Of a stretch of DNA of 64,000 nucleotides, positions 44,439-63,968 are shown one piece after another; positions within the stretch are counted from its first letter, which is position 1, and every line of letters starts with the position of its first letter. The translations under genes and the position numbers were made by a program. Under the pieces are notes generated by a model. It saw nothing but the letters and a program-made list of their open reading frames with translations. It had not been told where the DNA came from and did no database searches. The stretch is from Anaerostipes sp. MSJ-23 (lineage in GTDB: Bacteria; Bacillota; Clostridia; Lachnospirales; Lachnospiraceae), in contig NZ_JAHLPY010000001.1 of the NCBI RefSeq assembly GCF_018918155.1, positions 1 through 64,000 of the forward strand, in the 5' to 3' direction.

Positions 44439-45389
44439 AGAAAGCATTTTTTCTGCCTTATTCAAATATCCACGAATCACTTCACAAGAATGCATAAACT
44501 CTTCTTGTTCCCGTTCATCAAGTGAAATTTCTACAATTTCTTCTATTCCATTACGTCCAATGACCGTTGGAACACCTACTGCAACTTCTTTTTGTCCATA
44601 TTCCCCATTTAGGTGAACAGATAATGGCCAAATTTTCTTTTCATCATGAAAAATGCTATTGACAATTTCACTAAAAGCAATTCCAATCCCAAATTCTGTA
44701 CTTCCTTTTCCCTCAATAACCGTCATACCCGCATCTCTGACTGCCTGTTGTAATTCTTCCAACGTAAGTTCTTCGGAAAGTTTTGGCTGCTCTTTTTTCA
44801 GTTGATCAAGACTTTTTGCCCCAAAACGAACTTGAGAAAGCGGAACCATCTGGGAATCTCCATGCTCTCCCATACAAAATGCCTGAATAGAATTACGGCT
44901 ATAACCAGTTTTTTCTTCTAAGATACGTTTCATTCGAAGAGTATCAAGACTTGTTCCAGTACTGAAACAACGAAAACGATCCATTCCAAGTTCTTTTCTT
45001 AAACATTCTCCAACAACATCTGCCGGATTCGTAATACTAATTAAAATTCCATCAAAATGACTATTTTTAATCTTTGGAATAATGTCTTTCAGACGCTCCA
45101 TGGAATCCTCAAACATATCGAGTCTTGTTTCTCCTGGACGTCTGCTTCTTCCAATTGCATTTACAAGAATTTGCGTATCTTTAAGATCCTCATAATCTCC
45201 TGCACGAATTACTGTTTTTGTTGGAAGACAAGCCCCCATATCATTCAAATCAAGCGCCTGACTGGCTGCTTTTCCAGGATGGCTGTCAATCAATACAATT
45301 TCATCTGCCAGCCCACGGAACATAAGACTTGAAGCACAATGTGTTCCAACATGACCTGCTCCAAGAATCGTAATTTTACGTTTTTCCAT
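44436..45389 (-). CDS. lactate/malate dehydrogenase family protein
   Basis: A 317-residue NAD-dependent 2-hydroxyacid dehydrogenase. It has the Rossmann start ITILGAGHVGTHCAS, proton-relay His in GEHGDSQM and substrate Arg in PGETRLDM and LDTLRM. At the specificity position (residue 102 in LDH numbering, Arg83 here) the sequence GRSRRPGETR has Arg, where lactate dehydrogenases have Gln. Arg there is the mark of malate dehydrogenase. Activity on malate/oxaloacetate or another dicarboxylic or bulky acid is possible, so no gene symbol is given. It follows the thioesterase gene by 32 bases. Confidence 0.85.
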   Translation of the reverse strand: MEKRKITILGAGHVGTHCASSLMFRGLADEIVLIDSHPGKAASQALDLNDMGACLPTKTVIRAGDYEDLKDTQILVNAIGRSRRPGETRLDMFEDSMERLKDIIPKIKNSHFDGILISITNPADVVGECLRKELGMDRFRCFSTGTSLDTLRMKRILEEKTGYSRNSIQAFCMGEHGDSQMVPLSQVRFGAKSLDQLKKEQPKLSEELTLEELQQAVRDAGMTVIEGKGSTEFGIGIAFSEIVNSIFHDEKKIWPLSVHLNGEYGQKEVAVGVPTVIGRNGIEEIVEISLDEREQEEFMHSCEVIRGYLNKAEKMLS

Positions 45390-55588: not shown

Positions 55589-56932
55589 ATGTCATTCACT
55601 CAAGAATATCAAAAAAAATTAACAACTGCTGATGAAGCGGTAAAAGTTGTAAAATCAGGAGATCGTCTGGAATACGGATGGTGTGTTACAACACCTGTTG
55701 CCTTAGACGAAGCTCTGGCAAAACGTATGCCTGATCTTGAAAATATTCAGATCCATGGTGGTATCGTCATGCGTCCGCTGGCAATTACTCAGATTGAAAA
55801 TCCAGCAGATCATTTTACATGGAATTCATGGCATATGGGCGGACTGGAAAGAAAATGGATCAACGAAGGTTTTTCTTTCTATGCACCAATCCGCTATTCT
55901 GAATTACCAGGATATTATCGTGACTATCTTCCAGCAACAGACGTTGTTATGATGCAGGTTGCACCAATGGACAAGCACGGATATTTCAATTTTGGTCCAA
56001 GTGCTTCTCATACAGCTGCTATGCTTGAAAAAGCAAAATGTGTTATCGTTGAAGTTAACGAAAACATGCCTCGATGCCTTGGAGGATTTGAAGAAGGAAT
56101 TCATATTTCTAAAGTTGATATGATCGTAGAAGGAACAAATCCTGCCATCGATGAATTAGGTGGCGGCGGTGCTGCAACAGAAGTCGATCAGGCTGTAGCA
56201 AAATTAATCGTAGATCAGATTCCTAACGGTGCATGTCTTCAGCTTGGAATCGGCGGAATGCCAAACGCTGTTGGATCTCTGATTGCAGAATCTGACTTAA
56301 AAGATCTTGGTGTTCATACAGAAATGTATGTAGACGCATTCGTTGATATTGCAAAAGCCGGAAAAATTACAGGTGCTCATAAGAATCTTGACCGTTATCG
56401 TCAAACTTATGCATTTGCAGCTGGTACAAAGAAACTGTATGATTATCTTGATGACAACCCTGAATGCATGAGTGCTCCTGTTGATTATACGAATAATATC
56501 GCAACAATTTCTGCTCTTGATAACTTCATCTCCATTAACAATGCCGTTGATGTTGACCTTTATGGACAGATCAGTGCAGAATCTTCAGGAATCCGTCAGA
56601 TCAGTGGTGCCGGCGGACAGCTCGATTTCGTTATGGGTGCATATCTTTCAAACGGTGGAAAGAGCTTTGTATGTCTGTCTTCTACTTTCACAAACAAGAA
56701 AGGAGAAACATTCTCAAGAATCCTTCCAACCTTACATGCAGGTTCCGCTGTAACAGATACTCGTGCAAATGCACATTATATTGTTACAGAATATGGCATG
56801 GCAAACATGAAAGGTCTTTCTTCATGGGAACGTGCGGAAGCACTGATCAATATTGCTCATCCAGACTTCAGAGATCAGCTGATCAAAGATGCAGAAGCTG
56901 CTCACATCTGGAGAAAATCAAATCGTCGATAG
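55589..56932 (+). CDS. but: butyryl-CoA:acetate CoA-transferase
   Basis: A 447-residue class I CoA-transferase closely resembling the But enzymes of Roseburia and Anaerostipes. It moves CoA from butyryl-CoA to acetate, giving butyrate and acetyl-CoA. The catalytic glutamate is expected at Glu245 in [11 protein letters not shown], and the oxyanion region [15 protein letters not shown] precedes it. GGAGG lies eight bases before the ATG. 4-hydroxybutyrate CoA-transferase is the close alternative, but the butyrate operon nearby favours But. It is followed by a strong terminator that overlaps the ldh ribosome binding site. Confidence 0.92.
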
Positions 56933-56942
56933 ATTTTTGTAT

Positions 56943-56987
56943 AAAAAACCTCCTTTTCCGGATACTAAACGGAAAGGAGGTTTTTTT
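56943..56987 (+). terminator. terminator of but, containing the ldh ribosome binding site
   Basis: Bases 56943-56960 pair with 56970-56987 with one bulged base, followed by a run of T. The 3' arm contains AGGAGG (56975-56980), seven bases before the ldh ATG. A transcript reading through from but would hide the site in the stem. Confidence 0.85.
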
Positions 56988-57941
56988 ATGTTAAATATGA
57001 GAAAAGCTGCAATCATTGGATGTGGATTTGTCGGTTCTGCGACTGCTTTTAGTCTGATGCATCAAGGTCTTTTTACAGAACTTGTATTAATCGATGTCAA
57101 CCATGAAAAAGCAAAAGGAGAAGCCATGGATTTAAGCCACGGACGCCCTTATGTTGATACCGCAAAAATCTATGCAGGGTCTTATGATGATATTTCTGAC
57201 TGTTCCATGATTATTATCACTGCCGGAGCAAATCAGAAACCTGAAGAGACAAGACTAGATCTCGTCCAGAAAAATGTTGCAATCTTAAAAACAATCATAC
57301 CAGAAATTACAAAGCGAGGCTATGATGGCATTCTTCTTATCGTTTCCAATCCTGTTGATATTTTAACATATGCGGCTTATTGTCTCTCCGGGTTCGAACC
57401 AGGACGAGTTCTTGGTTCCGGTACTGTTCTTGACTCTGCACGCTTGCGTTATCTTTTAAGTGAACATTTAAAAGTTGATACAGAAAGCATCCACGCTTTT
57501 ATTATTGGAGAACATGGAGACAGTGAACTTGCTGTTTGGAGCAGTGCTCATGTTGCTGGAATTCCAATTCATGATTTTTGTGAATTTCGCGGACATTTTT
57601 GCCACCATGATGCCATGGAAAACATCTATCAAAACGTCCGTGAAAGTGCTTATGAAATTATTCACCGAAAAGGTGCTACTTACTATGGCATCGCAATGGC
57701 TGTCAATCATATCACAGAAAGCATGATCCGTGACAAAAATTCTGTTCTTCCGCTATCTACCCTTTTAACTGGACAATACGGACTTCAAAATCTTTACATG
57801 AGCGTACCAACCATTGTCAACCAAAATGGTGCCGGTCCAGTATTAGAACTCCCATTGAATGAACAAGAACAATCTCATTTACAGCAATCTGCACAAACAT
57901 TAAAAAAAGTAATTCAAACACTAGATATCCCTCAGAGATGA
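56988..57941 (+). CDS. ldh: L-lactate dehydrogenase
   Basis: A 317-residue NAD-dependent enzyme interconverting pyruvate and L-lactate. Rossmann start AAIIGCGFVGSATAFSLMHQ; the specificity loop TAGANQKPEETRLDLV has Gln83 at the lactate-determining position (LDH 102). The relay His is in GEHGDSELAVWS and Thr in KGATYYGIA. The ATG at 56988 has a perfectly placed AGGAGG, which is inside the upstream terminator hairpin; ATG 56997 is an alternative. It could support lactate formation or use, beside the butyrate genes. It converges with the NA37-type gene at a four-base gap. Confidence 0.94.
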   Translation: MLNMRKAAIIGCGFVGSATAFSLMHQGLFTELVLIDVNHEKAKGEAMDLSHGRPYVDTAKIYAGSYDDISDCSMIIITAGANQKPEETRLDLVQKNVAILKTIIPEITKRGYDGILLIVSNPVDILTYAAYCLSGFEPGRVLGSGTVLDSARLRYLLSEHLKVDTESIHAFIIGEHGDSELAVWSSAHVAGIPIHDFCEFRGHFCHHDAMENIYQNVRESAYEIIHRKGATYYGIAMAVNHITESMIRDKNSVLPLSTLLTGQYGLQNLYMSVPTIVNQNGAGPVLELPLNEQEQSHLQQSAQTLKKVIQTLDIPQR

Positions 57942-57946
57942 GGGAT
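57927..57946. repeat. hairpin shared by convergent ldh and NA37-type gene ends
   Basis: ATCCCTCA and TGAGGGAT are exact complements around four bases. The hairpin spans the ldh stop codon and reaches the last base of the opposite gene's stop. It may be a compact shared end signal; U-runs are weak. Confidence 0.5.
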
Positions 57947-58965
57947 TATCTTAATCTTACCTGTTCGATATTTTTGATAATGATTGTACTTGTACCACCA
58001 GGTTCTTCTATAATCTCAATATTATTCTTCGTATTATATTCTTCCATTGGAATTTTTATTTCAATTCCTGTATCCGTCTCAATCATTTGATATTCCAACT
58101 TCTTTACCGTATTTTCCTTTGCAACGGTAAAAGTATCATACTGCAGATCATATCGTTCAATTTTATCATCAAACTCTTGCTTTTTCCCCTGATGATTGCC
58201 AAACAATTTATCTCCAATCTCATTAATCTTAAACGCTTGATTCTCTTCAAATTCATTTCGAAGCTGACTTTTAATATCCATTCGCTTTTTAATTCCATCT
58301 TCCGGATAATGATTGTTAATATCATTAATAACTTTATTTAAAATTTGAAATTTCTTTTTCGGTGCCATATCGGCAGAACATTGAAGAAAACGTTCTGACA
58401 AATAATTCATTTTATCCCCATTTAGCATTTCATATTTCTTCTCAACAAGTTGTATTTTATATTCTGCAAGATCGATAATGACCGCTTCTGTTAACTTTGA
58501 AGAATCCGTCGGCATAACTCTCTGCTTTACAATATCATTTCCTTCGTGCTCATCTTGATGATGCACATAAGTCATTTTATAATTCATTTTCAACATAGCA
58601 AGATAAACAACACTTTGAAGCTGGAAAGTTACACACAAAAGATCCGCTGCTGGAATAGTAACACTATTACACATAATATCAAATAGACTTTCTCCAAGTA
58701 CTCTCGTTGCCTCAATAAAGCTGTCATCATCAGTTTCTTCCATCGTTTCTAGAAGGCTCAAAACTGGCGAAATGCTCCCATCAAATTTACATTTCTTTGT
58801 ATCATCACTCTCTAAAATTTTAAAAATATGCCCTCGCACAAATTCCATCAAATCCGGTCCCATCTCAAGAAGACTCCCAGAAAGACCAAGATATCCATTA
58901 TGGCTGTCTAATATATGTAAAATTCCCTTTCTGATGATAATATCATCTTTTTGTATATTTAACAT
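57946..58965 (-). CDS. nucleoid-associated protein homologue (NA37/YejK family)
   Basis: A 339-residue protein that resembles PF04245 (37-kDa nucleoid-associated protein, NdpA). Supporting features are the N-terminal DDIIIRKGILHILD and SGSLLEMGPDLMEFVRGHI block, and a charged C-terminal half. Family members bind DNA in bulk, though phage and plasmid homologues exist. Function here is unproven. GGAG precedes the ATG. A promoter TTGAAA/TAAAAT is at 58990-59018. Confidence 0.8.
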   Translation of the reverse strand: MLNIQKDDIIIRKGILHILDSHNGYLGLSGSLLEMGPDLMEFVRGHIFKILESDDTKKCKFDGSISPVLSLLETMEETDDDSFIEATRVLGESLFDIMCNSVTIPAADLLCVTFQLQSVVYLAMLKMNYKMTYVHHQDEHEGNDIVKQRVMPTDSSKLTEAVIIDLAEYKIQLVEKKYEMLNGDKMNYLSERFLQCSADMAPKKKFQILNKVINDINNHYPEDGIKKRMDIKSQLRNEFEENQAFKINEIGDKLFGNHQGKKQEFDDKIERYDLQYDTFTVAKENTVKKLEYQMIETDTGIEIKIPMEEYNTKNNIEIIEEPGGTSTIIIKNIEQVRLR

Positions 58966-59141: not shown

Positions 59142-60176
59142 CTATTTTACAACAGCTTTTAACTTTTCTGTTAATGCTGGTACAATTTTATTTAAATCAC
59201 CAACAATACCGTAATCAGCTACATCAAAAATAGGAGCTGTTTCATCTTTGTTAATTGCAATGATGATGTCAGATTCTTCCATACCTGCAACGTGCTGGAT
59301 TGCTCCAGAAATACCGATTGCAAAGTATACATTTGGACGTACTGTTTTTCCTGTCTGTCCAACCTGAATGTCTCTTGGCTGCCATCCATTATCTACAACA
59401 GCACGAGAGCAGCTAACTTCTCCACCGAGAACTTCAGCTAATTCTTTTAACATTCCGAATCCTTCTTCTCCAACTCCACGTCCACCGGATACAAGGATCT
59501 TAGCATCCATGATATCTACAGTGTCTGTTACGGATTTCACAATGTCAACAATTTCAACATATTTGTTATCTGGAGTAAATCCAGGATTGTATTCAATAAC
59601 TTCTGCCTTTGCTCCTTCGATAGGATCAATCTTCTGCATAACACCTGGACGTACTGTTGCCATCTGAGGACGGTTGTCTGGGCAAGCGATTGTTGCGATC
59701 GTATTTCCACCGAATGCTGGACGAGTCATTAATAACTGATTGTGTTTCTGTTCTTTTCCTGGGATTGCTCTTAATGGGAAATCACCGATTTCAAGAACTG
59801 TACAGTCAGCTGTCAGACCTGTCTGAACACGTGCAGATACACGAGGTCCAAGGTCACGACCGATTGCTGTCGCACCAACTAACATGATCTCTGGTTTGTA
59901 TTCATTGATCACAGATGCTAATGCATGTGTATATGGTTCTGTTCTGTATTCTTTTAATTCTGGATCGTCAACTACGATAACTTTATCAGCACCGTATTTT
60001 GCAAGATCATCTACTAATCCTTTAACGTCAGAACCTACAAGAACAGCAGTTACGTCTGTATCTAAGTCTTTTGCTAAGTCTTTTGCTTTTCCAAGTAATT
60101 CGAATGCGATTCCGCTTAATTCGTTATCTACCTGCTGTGCAAAGACGTATACGCCTCTATATTCTTCTAAACCCAT
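59142..60176 (-). CDS. etfA: electron transfer flavoprotein, alpha subunit
   Basis: A 344-residue subunit of EtfAB that works with butyryl-CoA dehydrogenase. The C-terminal FAD domain includes VSGGRGVGEEGF, WQPRDIQVGQTGKTVRPNVY and GISGAIQHVAGME. In related anaerobes the complex bifurcates electrons from NADH to crotonyl-CoA and ferredoxin; this is inferred here. The ATG at 60176 follows a GTGGTG-type site. It is the last gene of the operon, 24 bases after etfB. Confidence 0.95.
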   Translation of the reverse strand: MGLEEYRGVYVFAQQVDNELSGIAFELLGKAKDLAKDLDTDVTAVLVGSDVKGLVDDLAKYGADKVIVVDDPELKEYRTEPYTHALASVINEYKPEIMLVGATAIGRDLGPRVSARVQTGLTADCTVLEIGDFPLRAIPGKEQKHNQLLMTRPAFGGNTIATIACPDNRPQMATVRPGVMQKIDPIEGAKAEVIEYNPGFTPDNKYVEIVDIVKSVTDTVDIMDAKILVSGGRGVGEEGFGMLKELAEVLGGEVSCSRAVVDNGWQPRDIQVGQTGKTVRPNVYFAIGISGAIQHVAGMEESDIIIAINKDETAPIFDVADYGIVGDLNKIVPALTEKLKAVVK

Positions 60177-60200
60177 TTTATTCACCACTTTTCCTTTTCA

Positions 60201-60983
60201 CTAAATTACATGTTTTTCAGCTAATTTATCCATGATATAATCTACTGCTTCTTCTGGATCAAGTGTAACTTTTTCTCCAGCACCTTTTCTTACTTTGTCA
60301 GATGCTTTTGCGATCTTAGTTGGAGATCCAGCAAGACCAAGGTTAGAATCCTCTACATCTTTAAGGTCTTTTCTTCCCCAAACAGTTACTTCTGCATCAT
60401 ATGCATCAAAAATTCCACCTGGAGTCATATATCTTGGCTCGTTTAATTCAGCTAATGCTGTAACTAAGCAAGGCATTTTAGCTTTTAAGATGTGGTATCT
60501 ATCTTCATACTGACGCTGTACAACTACGCTGTCACCGTCAATTTTAATGTCTTCTGCATAAGAGATAACTGGAATATCAAGATGTTCAGAAATCTGTGGT
60601 CCAACCTGAGCTGTATCACCATCGATAGCCTGACGTCCTGTGATGATCAGATCATAGTCAAGATTTCTTAATGCTCCAGCTAATGTAGTAGAAGTTGCCC
60701 ATGTGTCAGCTCCTCCTAATACTCTGTCAGTTACAAGGATACCTTTATCAGCACCCATTGCCATAGCTTCACGAAGAACTTCGTCAGCTTTTGGAAGTCC
60801 CATTGTAAGAACTGTAACTTCAGCTCCATATTCATCTTTAATTCTAAGTGCTGCTTCTAATCCAGCTTTGTCATCTGGGTTCATGATAGTAAGCATAGCA
60901 CCTCTGTCTAATGTACCATCTGGGTTGAATTTAACTCCACCTTTTGTATCTGGTACCTGTTTTACACAAACAACTATCTTCAC
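60201..60983 (-). CDS. etfB: electron transfer flavoprotein, beta subunit
   Basis: A 260-residue nucleotide-binding subunit. It opens MKIVVCVKQVPDTKGGVKFN and has the AEVTVLTMGLPKADEVLREA and GRQAIDGDTAQVGPQISEHL blocks typical of EtfB. It binds AMP or a second FAD in bifurcating types. It starts 13 bases after bcd and precedes etfA, the order etfB-etfA. Confidence 0.95.
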   Translation of the reverse strand: MKIVVCVKQVPDTKGGVKFNPDGTLDRGAMLTIMNPDDKAGLEAALRIKDEYGAEVTVLTMGLPKADEVLREAMAMGADKGILVTDRVLGGADTWATSTTLAGALRNLDYDLIITGRQAIDGDTAQVGPQISEHLDIPVISYAEDIKIDGDSVVVQRQYEDRYHILKAKMPCLVTALAELNEPRYMTPGGIFDAYDAEVTVWGRKDLKDVEDSNLGLAGSPTKIAKASDKVRKGAGEKVTLDPEEAVDYIMDKLAEKHVI

Positions 60984-60996
60984 GGTAAGTACCTCC

Positions 60997-62148
60997 CTAT
61001 TTCAATAAGTTTCCAGAAATAACCATACGCTGAACTTCAGATGTTCCTTCGTAGATTTCTGTGATCTTAGCATCGCGCATCATACGTTCTACATCATATT
61101 CTCTGATGTATCCGTAACCACCATGTAACTGAACAGCTTTTGTTGTTACTTCCATAGCAACTTCTGCTGCATATAATTTAGCCATAGCAGCTTCAACACT
61201 GTATACTTTCTGAGTAGCTTTAGCCATAGCAGCTTTGTATACTAACTGTTTTGCAGCTTCTACTTTTGTTGCCATATCAGCTAACTGGAACTGTGTATTC
61301 TGGAACTGTCCGATAGAACGTCCGAACTGTTTTCTTTCTTTTACATATTCGATTGTTCTTTCTAAAGCACCTTCTGCAAGTCCAAGAGCCTGAGAAGCGA
61401 TACCAATACGTCCTCCATCAAGAGTATGCATTGCGATACCGAAACCTTTACCCTGTTTTCCTAACAGATTTTCTTTTGGAATACGGCAGTCTTCAAAAAT
61501 TAATTCATATGTAGCTGATCCGCGGATACCCATTTTCTTTTCTTTTGTTCCGAATGTGAAACCTGGAGTTCCCTTTTCTACGATGAATGCAGAAATTTCT
61601 TTCATCTTTCTTCCGCGTTTTTCAACAACACCTGTTACTGCGATTACGATATAAACGTCTGCGTAGCTACCATTTGTAATGAAGCACTTAGATCCGTTTA
61701 ATACCCATTCGTCTCCGTCTAATACGGCTTTTGTCTGCTGTCCCTGTGCATCTGTACCAGCACCTGGTTCTGTCAGACCAAAAGCTCCTAATTTCTTACC
61801 AGATGCTAAATCTGGGATATATTTTTTCTTCTGTTCTTCTGTACCAAAAGTCTGGATTGGATCGATACAAAGAGATGTATGTGCAGAAACGATAACACCT
61901 GTTGTACCACAAACTTTTGATAATTCTTCAACACACATAACGTATGTTAATGGATCGCATCCCTGTCCACCATATTCTTTAGGAACTGGAATACCTAAGA
62001 ATCCTGCTTTAGCCATTTTTGCTACAGTTTCAACTGGGAACTGTTCGTTCTCGTCAACATCCTGTGCAAGAGGCTTAACTTCTTTTTCGGCAAACTCTTT
62101 AAAAAGAGTTCTTGCCATTTCATGTTTCTTACTTAATGTGAAATCCAT
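60997..62148 (-). CDS. bcd: butyryl-CoA dehydrogenase
   Basis: A 383-residue FAD acyl-CoA dehydrogenase that reduces crotonyl-CoA to butyryl-CoA. The FAD block is FGLTEPGAGTDAQGQQT (about residues 123-139), the substrate loop is QLHGGYGYIREYDVER, and the catalytic Glu is in EIYEGTSEVQRMV near residue 367. Length and context favour a short-chain, Etf-linked enzyme. An 88-base spacer with a perfect 12-base hairpin separates it from hbd. Confidence 0.95.
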   Translation of the reverse strand: MDFTLSKKHEMARTLFKEFAEKEVKPLAQDVDENEQFPVETVAKMAKAGFLGIPVPKEYGGQGCDPLTYVMCVEELSKVCGTTGVIVSAHTSLCIDPIQTFGTEEQKKKYIPDLASGKKLGAFGLTEPGAGTDAQGQQTKAVLDGDEWVLNGSKCFITNGSYADVYIVIAVTGVVEKRGRKMKEISAFIVEKGTPGFTFGTKEKKMGIRGSATYELIFEDCRIPKENLLGKQGKGFGIAMHTLDGGRIGIASQALGLAEGALERTIEYVKERKQFGRSIGQFQNTQFQLADMATKVEAAKQLVYKAAMAKATQKVYSVEAAMAKLYAAEVAMEVTTKAVQLHGGYGYIREYDVERMMRDAKITEIYEGTSEVQRMVISGNLLK

Positions 62149-62183
62149 TCTTTATTCCTCCATAAAAAAATGTATAAAGTAAT

Positions 62184-62223
62184 CCATCCGCATCCAGTCA
62201 TTCACCATTCCGGATGCGGATGG
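62184..62223 (-). repeat. intergenic hairpin between hbd and bcd
   Basis: CCATCCGCATCC (62184-62195) and GGATGCGGATGG (62212-62223) are exact complements around 16 bases. No U-run follows on the minus strand, so it is likely an mRNA processing or stabilising element rather than a terminator. Confidence 0.7.
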
Positions 62224-62236
62224 AGAGCTCTAACTT

Positions 62237-63076
62237 TTATTTGCTGTAATCGTAGAATCCTTTACCAGTTTTACATCCTAATAATCCTCCACGAACCATC
62301 TTTCTTAATAATGGATGTGGACGATATTTTGTATCACCAAATTCATTGTAAAGTACTTCCATGATTGCAAGGCAAACGTCTAATCCAATTAAATCACCTA
62401 AAGCTAAAGGTCCCATTGGATGGTTTGCTCCTAATTTCATAGCTGTATCAATACCTTCTACAGAAGCTACTCCATCAGCATAAATTCCGATTGCTTCGTT
62501 GATCATAGGGATTAAGATTCTGTTAACTACGAATCCAGCACCTTCTTCAACCTGTACAGGTGTTTTACCGATTTCTTCAGCGATTGCTTTGATCTTATCA
62601 ACAATTTCTTTTGGTGTGTTGATACCAGCGATAACTTCAACCAGTTTCATAACAGGAGCTGGGTTAAAGAAATGCATACCGATCATTGGACGATCAAGTC
62701 CTGCACCAATTTCTGTGATTGATAAAGAAGATGTATTTGTAGCAAAGATAGCATCTTTTTTACAGATATCCTGTAATTCTTTGAATGTCTGTTTTTTGAT
62801 TTCCATGTTTTCAATAGCTGCTTCTACGATTAAATCGCAGTCTGTACAGATATCTTTTACACCTGTTGTGATCTTTGCTAAGATAGCATCTACAGCTGCC
62901 TGTTCCATTTTTCCTCTTGCAACACGTTTTTCTAAACCTTTTGCGATTTTAGCTTTTCCGTTTGCTGCAAATTCTTCATTAATATCACATAAGCATACTT
63001 CATATCCTTCTGTCTGTGCAAATGCCTGTGCGATTCCGCTACCCATTGTTCCAGCGCCGATAACTCCAACTTTCAT
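62237..63076 (-). CDS. hbd: 3-hydroxybutyryl-CoA dehydrogenase
   Basis: A 279-residue enzyme that reduces acetoacetyl-CoA to 3-hydroxybutyryl-CoA. NAD site [19 protein letters not shown] at the start, catalytic His in [19 protein letters not shown] (about residue 135-150) and the C-terminal dimer domain with [20 protein letters not shown]. Length equals the clostridial Hbd. It lies between crt (100-base spacer with a hairpin) and bcd. Confidence 0.96.
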
Positions 63077-63114
63077 TGTATTTCCTCCTAAAAATTTTAA
63101 GTAATATCATCTCG

Positions 63115-63142
63115 CTGCACACAGATTTTCATCTGTGCACAG
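63115..63142 (-). repeat. GAAA-tetraloop hairpin between crt and hbd
   Basis: On the minus strand CTGTGCACAGAT and ATCTGTGTGCAG pair over 12 positions, two of them G-U, around a GAAA loop. The two arms cannot pair fully on the plus strand, so the signal is specific to the crt-hbd mRNA. Confidence 0.65.
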
Positions 63143-63176
63143 GAGAAGATTGTTTTAACAAAATGAATTTATACGA

Positions 63177-63968
63177 TTATTTATTCTGGAAAGGAACCAC
63201 TTTGAGTTTCTTTGATTTATCTTTCTCAAGGAAGTTACCCATTCCTGCTTTCTGATCTTCTGTTTCGAAGCAGCTTCCGAAAGCTTTTTCTTCTACAACA
63301 ATCGCCTGGTCCATATCTACCTGAAGACCTTCGTTGATTGCTTTTTTACTTGCACGAACTGCGATTGGTGCGTTCTTTGCAATTTTAGAAGCTAATTTCT
63401 TTGCAGCATCCAGAAGTTCTTCCTGTGGATATACTGCATTAACAAGACCGATTCTATAAGCTTCATCTGCTTTAATGTTAAATGCTGTATAGATCATTTC
63501 TTTTGCTTTTCCAGCCCCAACCAGACGTGCAAGTCTCTGTGTTCCACCAAATCCTGGTGTAATTCCAAGACCTACTTCAGGCTGACCGAAAATAGCATTT
63601 TCAGCACACAGTCTAATATCACAGCTCATGGAGATTTCGCATCCTCCACCTAAAGCAAATCCATTGACTGCAGCAATAACAGGAATTGGGAATGTTTCGA
63701 TCTTACGGAATACATCGTTTCCTGTTTTACCGAAAGCTTCTCCTTCTGCTTTTGTTAATGTGCTCATTTCTCCGATATCAGCACCGGCAACAAAAGATTT
63801 ATCTCCTGCACCTGTCAGTACGACAGCTCTTGTTGCATCTAAATCGATGGCATCAAATGTTGCTTCGATTTCTTTTAATACTTCACTGTTTAATGCGTTT
63901 AACGCTTTTGGACGATTGATTGTAACGACACCTACGAATCCATCCTGTTCATATGTAACGAATTCCAT
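63177..63968 (-). CDS. crt: crotonase (3-hydroxybutyryl-CoA dehydratase)
   Basis: A 263-residue enoyl-CoA hydratase that dehydrates 3-hydroxybutyryl-CoA to crotonyl-CoA. The oxyanion blocks KSFVAGADIGEMSTL (about residue 58-72) and NGFALGGGCEISMSCDI (about 103-119) are present, and the two catalytic Glu lie in the second and in QPEVGLGITPGFGGTQRL. AAAGGAG lies eight bases before the ATG. It is the first butyrate gene in the window; thl is not seen and may lie beyond the right edge. Confidence 0.95.
   Translation of the reverse strand: MEFVTYEQDGFVGVVTINRPKALNALNSEVLKEIEATFDAIDLDATRAVVLTGAGDKSFVAGADIGEMSTLTKAEGEAFGKTGNDVFRKIETFPIPVIAAVNGFALGGGCEISMSCDIRLCAENAIFGQPEVGLGITPGFGGTQRLARLVGAGKAKEMIYTAFNIKADEAYRIGLVNAVYPQEELLDAAKKLASKIAKNAPIAVRASKKAINEGLQVDMDQAIVVEEKAFGSCFETEDQKAGMGNFLEKDKSKKLKVVPFQNK

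Follow-up and report, generated by a model that had tools for sequence, protein, structure and literature searches.

A conserved hairpin between the but and ldh genes of Anaerostipes combines a terminator-like structure with the ldh ribosome-binding site and probably an ldh promoter

The short gap between the genes for butyryl-CoA:acetate CoA-transferase (but) and L-lactate dehydrogenase (ldh) in Anaerostipes sp. MSJ-23 holds a hairpin that recalls several described systems and departs from each of them in some respect. Like an intrinsic terminator, it has a G/C-containing stem that runs directly into a U7 tract just past a stop codon; unlike one, it lends its 3′ arm and U-tract to the next gene as Shine–Dalgarno site (SD) and spacer, and its loop carries a −10-like element. 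The TPP riboswitch platforms (before thiT-like genes) and THF riboswitch platforms of Lachnospiraceae likewise have a CCTCCT...AGGAGG[A/T]TTTT...ATG hairpin adjoining the start codon and are caught by the same sequence pattern, whereas but–ldh is devoid of an aptamer, has the end of another gene upstream and bears a promoter-like element in the loop. Promoters within or overlapping the terminator of an upstream gene are also known as a general kind. They share with the present locus the placement of the downstream gene's start signals inside the upstream terminator; however, at but–ldh the overlap reaches the ribosome site, so that whether the SD can pair would depend on where the transcript begins. 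Literature searches for the combined terminator, promoter and SD architecture returned no matching paper. The hairpin design thus belongs to a known type of expression platform; what sets but–ldh apart is that it lacks an aptamer and has a promoter-like element inside the loop.

The window, i.e., the whole stretch of 64,000 nucleotides that was analysed, contains the following features at this locus:

55589–56932, plus strand: but, butyryl-CoA:acetate CoA-transferase, 447 aa (NCBIfam TIGR03948, 892 bits against a cutoff of 674.8)
56937–56942, plus strand: −35-like TTGTAT, within a WTGNATA-like block (nine-species alignment); a weak −35 in MSJ-23, a good one (TTGATA) in G002 and G007
56943–56960, plus strand: 5′ arm of the hairpin (folding), containing the anti-SD CCTCCTTT (56949–56956), which is invariant in 10/10 genomes with the arrangement
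56961–56969, plus strand: loop GATACTAAA, 9 nt, with the −10-like GATACT (56961–56966) entirely inside it (promoter ranking; ANA[C/A]TA in the loop of all species)
56970–56986, plus strand: 3′ arm of the hairpin (sequence and folding), containing the ldh SD AAAGGAGG; probable region of the ldh RNA start (expected at ~56973)
56975–56980, plus strand: AGGAGG, the ldh SD, 7 nt before the ATG (sequence)
56981–56987, plus strand: U7 tract, both terminator U-tract and SD-to-start spacer (sequence; a T-run of 6–8 in all species)
56988–57941, plus strand: ldh, L-lactate dehydrogenase, 317 aa (NCBIfam TIGR01771, 406 bits against a cutoff of 303.55)

The but stop codon (56930–56932) and the ldh ATG (56988–56990) are thus separated by 55 nt, most of which is taken up by the hairpin (56943–56986). 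The original prediction, made from the sequence of this stretch, had placed the AGGAGG of ldh in the 3′ arm of an 18-base stem lying 3′ of but; its coordinates for the SD were exact and the stem itself is upheld, although it comprises 17 pairs rather than 18 and is interrupted by one bulged T, at 56957. From the stem-loop to the ATG the predicted fold energy is −22.1 kcal/mol, as against a mean of −8.8 (sd 2.5) for shuffled versions of the 55-nt intergenic region, and 0/5000 dinucleotide shuffles fold as low; the hairpin is therefore far beyond chance. Its structure is that of an intrinsic terminator (17 bp, −22.1 kcal/mol, GGAGG and then U7) and is conserved in 10 genomes. A scan for consensus promoters and terminators nevertheless missed it, since the rules of the scan permit no bulge and only loops of up to 8 nt, whereas the actual loop is 9 nt; the same scan listed no promoter at the locus. 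Searching the whole MSJ-23 genome with the pattern CCTCCN{4,30}GGAGGTTTTT recovered the but–ldh locus alone (a second match is this palindrome read from the opposite strand), and among 319 SD-bearing genes in a 403-kb sample, called with a crude gene caller, ldh alone has a strong hairpin with the SD in its 3′ arm followed by a T-run. Both the pattern and the survey thus rule out the arrangement as a genome-wide habit of MSJ-23.

Comparison of eleven genomes of the genus, four of which have named matches that come mostly from Anaerostipes, A. butyraticus among them, shows but directly upstream of ldh in ten, and CCTCCTTT...AAAGGAGG followed by the T-run and ATG is kept in 10/10 of these; hence, the check for conservation in other strains that had been proposed at the outset, run here across congeners, found the whole arrangement in every genome with this gene order. 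Nine of the eleven genomes match the search pattern, each at but–ldh; in G010 this match comes from the opposite strand of the palindrome, and G003 has a single extra match elsewhere. G009 escapes the pattern only because of a longer loop, which gains 12 nt between CCTCC and the ATG of ldh, forms an inner hairpin of its own (TATACC...GGTATA) and shifts the −10-like element to −43. Fourfold-degenerate sites in the flanking genes are nearly saturated (invariant in 0/75 ldh columns and 5/138 but columns), so the conservation of the cassette does not stem from shared ancestry alone. The outer eight stem pairs do not vary among species and are uninformative on pairing, their 3′ side being the SD; the conserved 5′ partner of that arm, however, has no role in SD function itself. 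Further in, the pairs switch between C–G, G–C and U–A (A–U in G003) and remain paired in most species; pairing stands at 93%, as against 44–71% in slid controls. Covariation is modest, with two pairs alone changing on both sides, a count that 197/500 shuffles reach. The intergenic length ranges from 55 to 104 nt across species, on which ground translational coupling of ldh to the but stop codon was rejected. An alternative ldh start at the second ATG (56998) was also rejected, as it is not conserved and the other species have AAT or GCT there.

One member of the genus, G006, has neither ldh nor the SD hairpin next to but (locus L108). Its but protein is 95% identical to that of MSJ-23 and is its sister in the but tree (support 0.999), and the gene ends in an ordinary hairpin and T-run ahead of a convergent gene. 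G006 has thus lost both ldh and the SD hairpin from this place, a loss specific to its lineage. The hairpin therefore travels with ldh, as would be expected of a fused but-terminator and ldh start region. The gene that follows ldh in MSJ-23, a convergent gene for a 37-kD nucleoid-associated protein (57946–58965; PF04245), still has its end adjoining but in G006.

Beyond the genus, the terminator-plus-SD pattern occurs in 75/299 genomes at the level of the family Lachnospiraceae, as against 7/299 for a control pattern equal in composition but not complementary (~ten times), implying that the pairing is favoured over chance in the family. A scan of 20 of these loci identified TPP riboswitches at 14, where a thiT-like transporter gene follows, and a THF riboswitch at one more. 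At but–ldh, on the other hand, the only Rfam matches to a riboswitch or other known RNA are sub-threshold (E up to 1), and the congeners yielded no Rfam riboswitch, their single match being an unrelated group II intron.

What the hairpin does to the ldh SD depends on the RNA in which it is found. When folded with the upstream but sequence, i.e., as read-through RNA, the SD core has a predicted unpaired probability of 0.00–0.02 in all ten genomes, which bears out the earlier proposal that the site would be locked away in any transcript continuing from but. Folding likewise offers no competitor for the 5′ arm: the best alternative partner reaches P ≤ 0.033 in all species, and no alternative pairing is conserved. 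With no aptamer and no competing pairing there is no visible device for opening the stem, and the parsimonious function would hence be insulation, whereby most but transcripts are stopped and the rest are kept from giving rise to Ldh. On the short RNA expected from an ldh promoter, other weak pairings make the predicted openness of the SD differ from one species to the next.

Such a promoter is probably furnished by the −10-like element in the loop together with the −35-like element upstream, judging from the alignment of nine species. In species that have the arrangement, the WTGNATA-like block precedes CCTCC by 12–13 nt, and the loop retains its −10-like motif throughout. In G002 and G007 the two elements read TTGATA-18-TATAAT and TTGATA-18-TATACT, respectively, and are the top promoter match of the upstream region. 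In MSJ-23, TTGTAT-18-GATACT is a weak to moderate match that ranks fourth of 1250 placements; the match is moderate in G008, G004 and G009 and weak in G001, G003, G010 and G005, all by an approximate matrix. Transcription from here would start 6–8 nt past the −10, at ~56973 and inside the 3′ arm, and the resulting RNA would consequently not include the 5′ arm. The original prediction had allowed ldh to be translated only when the stem opens or when transcription starts inside it. The latter is the better-supported route, given the conserved −10-like motif and the TTGATA-18-TATAAT/TATACT matches in two species; for the former, no conserved competing pairing came to light.

Hence, we consider that the hairpin probably represents a fusion of terminator, promoter and ribosome site that insulates ldh from but at the levels of both transcription and translation, this being the likeliest reading of the locus. 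Briefly, we advance the following mechanism. As a compressed form of punctuation, the 55-nt gap would hold three signals on shared bases: the hairpin and U-tract would terminate but transcription in a factor-independent manner, the 3′ arm and U-tract would double as the SD and spacer of ldh, and the −10 element of ldh's own promoter would sit in the loop. Most but RNA would stop at the U-tract, and in any read-through RNA that leaks past it the SD would stay paired and ldh would be poorly translated. RNA from the loop promoter would instead start at ~A56973–A56975 in the 3′ arm, where the stem can no longer form, leaving a leader of ~13–15 nt whose SD would be free of the 5′ arm. The net outcome would be that ldh is insulated from but twice over, while the promoter of ldh itself would set its level. 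What the analysis shows is the hairpin, the conservation of that hairpin and, by prediction, the pairing of the SD; actual termination, use of the promoter in MSJ-23 and the effect on translation are what we infer.

This anatomy argues for uncoupling, the opposite of the coupling between butyrate and lactate enzymes that had been ascribed to the hairpin. That proposal found no support in our comparison, since a terminator with a sequestered SD would separate ldh from but transcripts, and neither an aptamer, nor a conserved competing pairing, nor a constant distance from the but stop was found that would turn the stem into a switch. A regulated attenuator would restore the coupling: ldh expression would depend chiefly on read-through from but, with some condition, protein or RNA opening the stem and thereby relieving termination and freeing the SD at once, so as to link butyrate and lactate metabolism. 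The same-family hairpins that are mostly riboswitch expression platforms (15/20 loci), the conservation of the cassette across the genus and the weakness of the promoter in several species lend this some credence. Yet, no riboswitch is found at the locus or in any congener, the gap spans merely 55–104 nt, the 5′ arm has no conserved alternative pairing and a strong promoter would bypass the stem in two species; we accordingly deem an attenuator unlikely. A related conjecture, that the genus possesses an aptamer-free switch in which the origin of the transcript decides translation (read-through RNA being locked and loop-initiated RNA open), with the metabolic state setting the read-through fraction and one hairpin thereby tuning the butyrate/lactate balance, strikes us as speculative and improbable.

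An explanation that dispenses with translational control altogether is that the overlap merely saves space, terminator and SD sharing bases as both suit a G-rich arm followed by U's, with the sequestration in read-through RNA being of no real effect. Indeed, AAAGGAGG and the T-run are already half of a good terminator, termination needs a pairing partner whether or not the SD is hidden, and termination alone would account for the conservation of the 5′ arm. Against this, hiding of the SD follows automatically from the pairing, and the explanation differs from the insulation model in measurable effect alone; we hold it to be possible, if rather doubtful. The symmetry could also reside in the DNA, where a redox or metabolic repressor such as Rex would bind an operator centred on the ldh promoter, the RNA hairpin being incidental. 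The centre of the palindrome does coincide with the −10-like element, and G008 and G004 read TTGTTAAACTACTTAATACAA, which resembles a Rex half-site. However, pairing persists even though the inner palindrome letters vary by species (TTTCCG, TTTCCC, TTTGTC), as befits an RNA structure and not a fixed operator; moreover, MSJ-23 has no TTGTTAA, and the symmetric part spans the SD exactly and is then followed by the U-tract. An operator is thus highly improbable, and Rex in particular was rejected, the half-site resemblance being confined to G008 and G004 (and G009).

If the insulation reading is right, but–ldh would be a clear and conserved example in which a single hairpin acts as terminator, as ribosome-binding site and probably as promoter, set between two genes central to fermentation in abundant butyrate producers, and it would show how tightly packed neighbouring genes can stay independent. 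It would also caution against taking every SD sequestered in a hairpin for a sign of a regulated switch. Anyone who builds reporters from but and ldh, or engineers these genes, should likewise bear in mind that altering the terminator alters the ldh ribosome site.

Finally, the surroundings of the locus offer a few further observations. The central butyrate genes, which we judge from their ORF sequences to be etfA, etfB and those for an acyl-CoA dehydrogenase, a 3-hydroxybutyryl-CoA dehydrogenase and a crotonase, lie at 59142–63968 on the opposite strand, ~2.2 kb from but; this spacing contrasts with most colon butyrate producers, in which but is reported as separately encoded (PMC8914356). 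A second lactate/malate dehydrogenase homologue, ~34% identical, is encoded at 44469–45383 on the minus strand, and most congeners have one too. Lastly, a hairpin over the final codons and stop of ldh (ATCCCTCAGAGATGAGGGAT, 57927–57946) may be the terminator of that gene.
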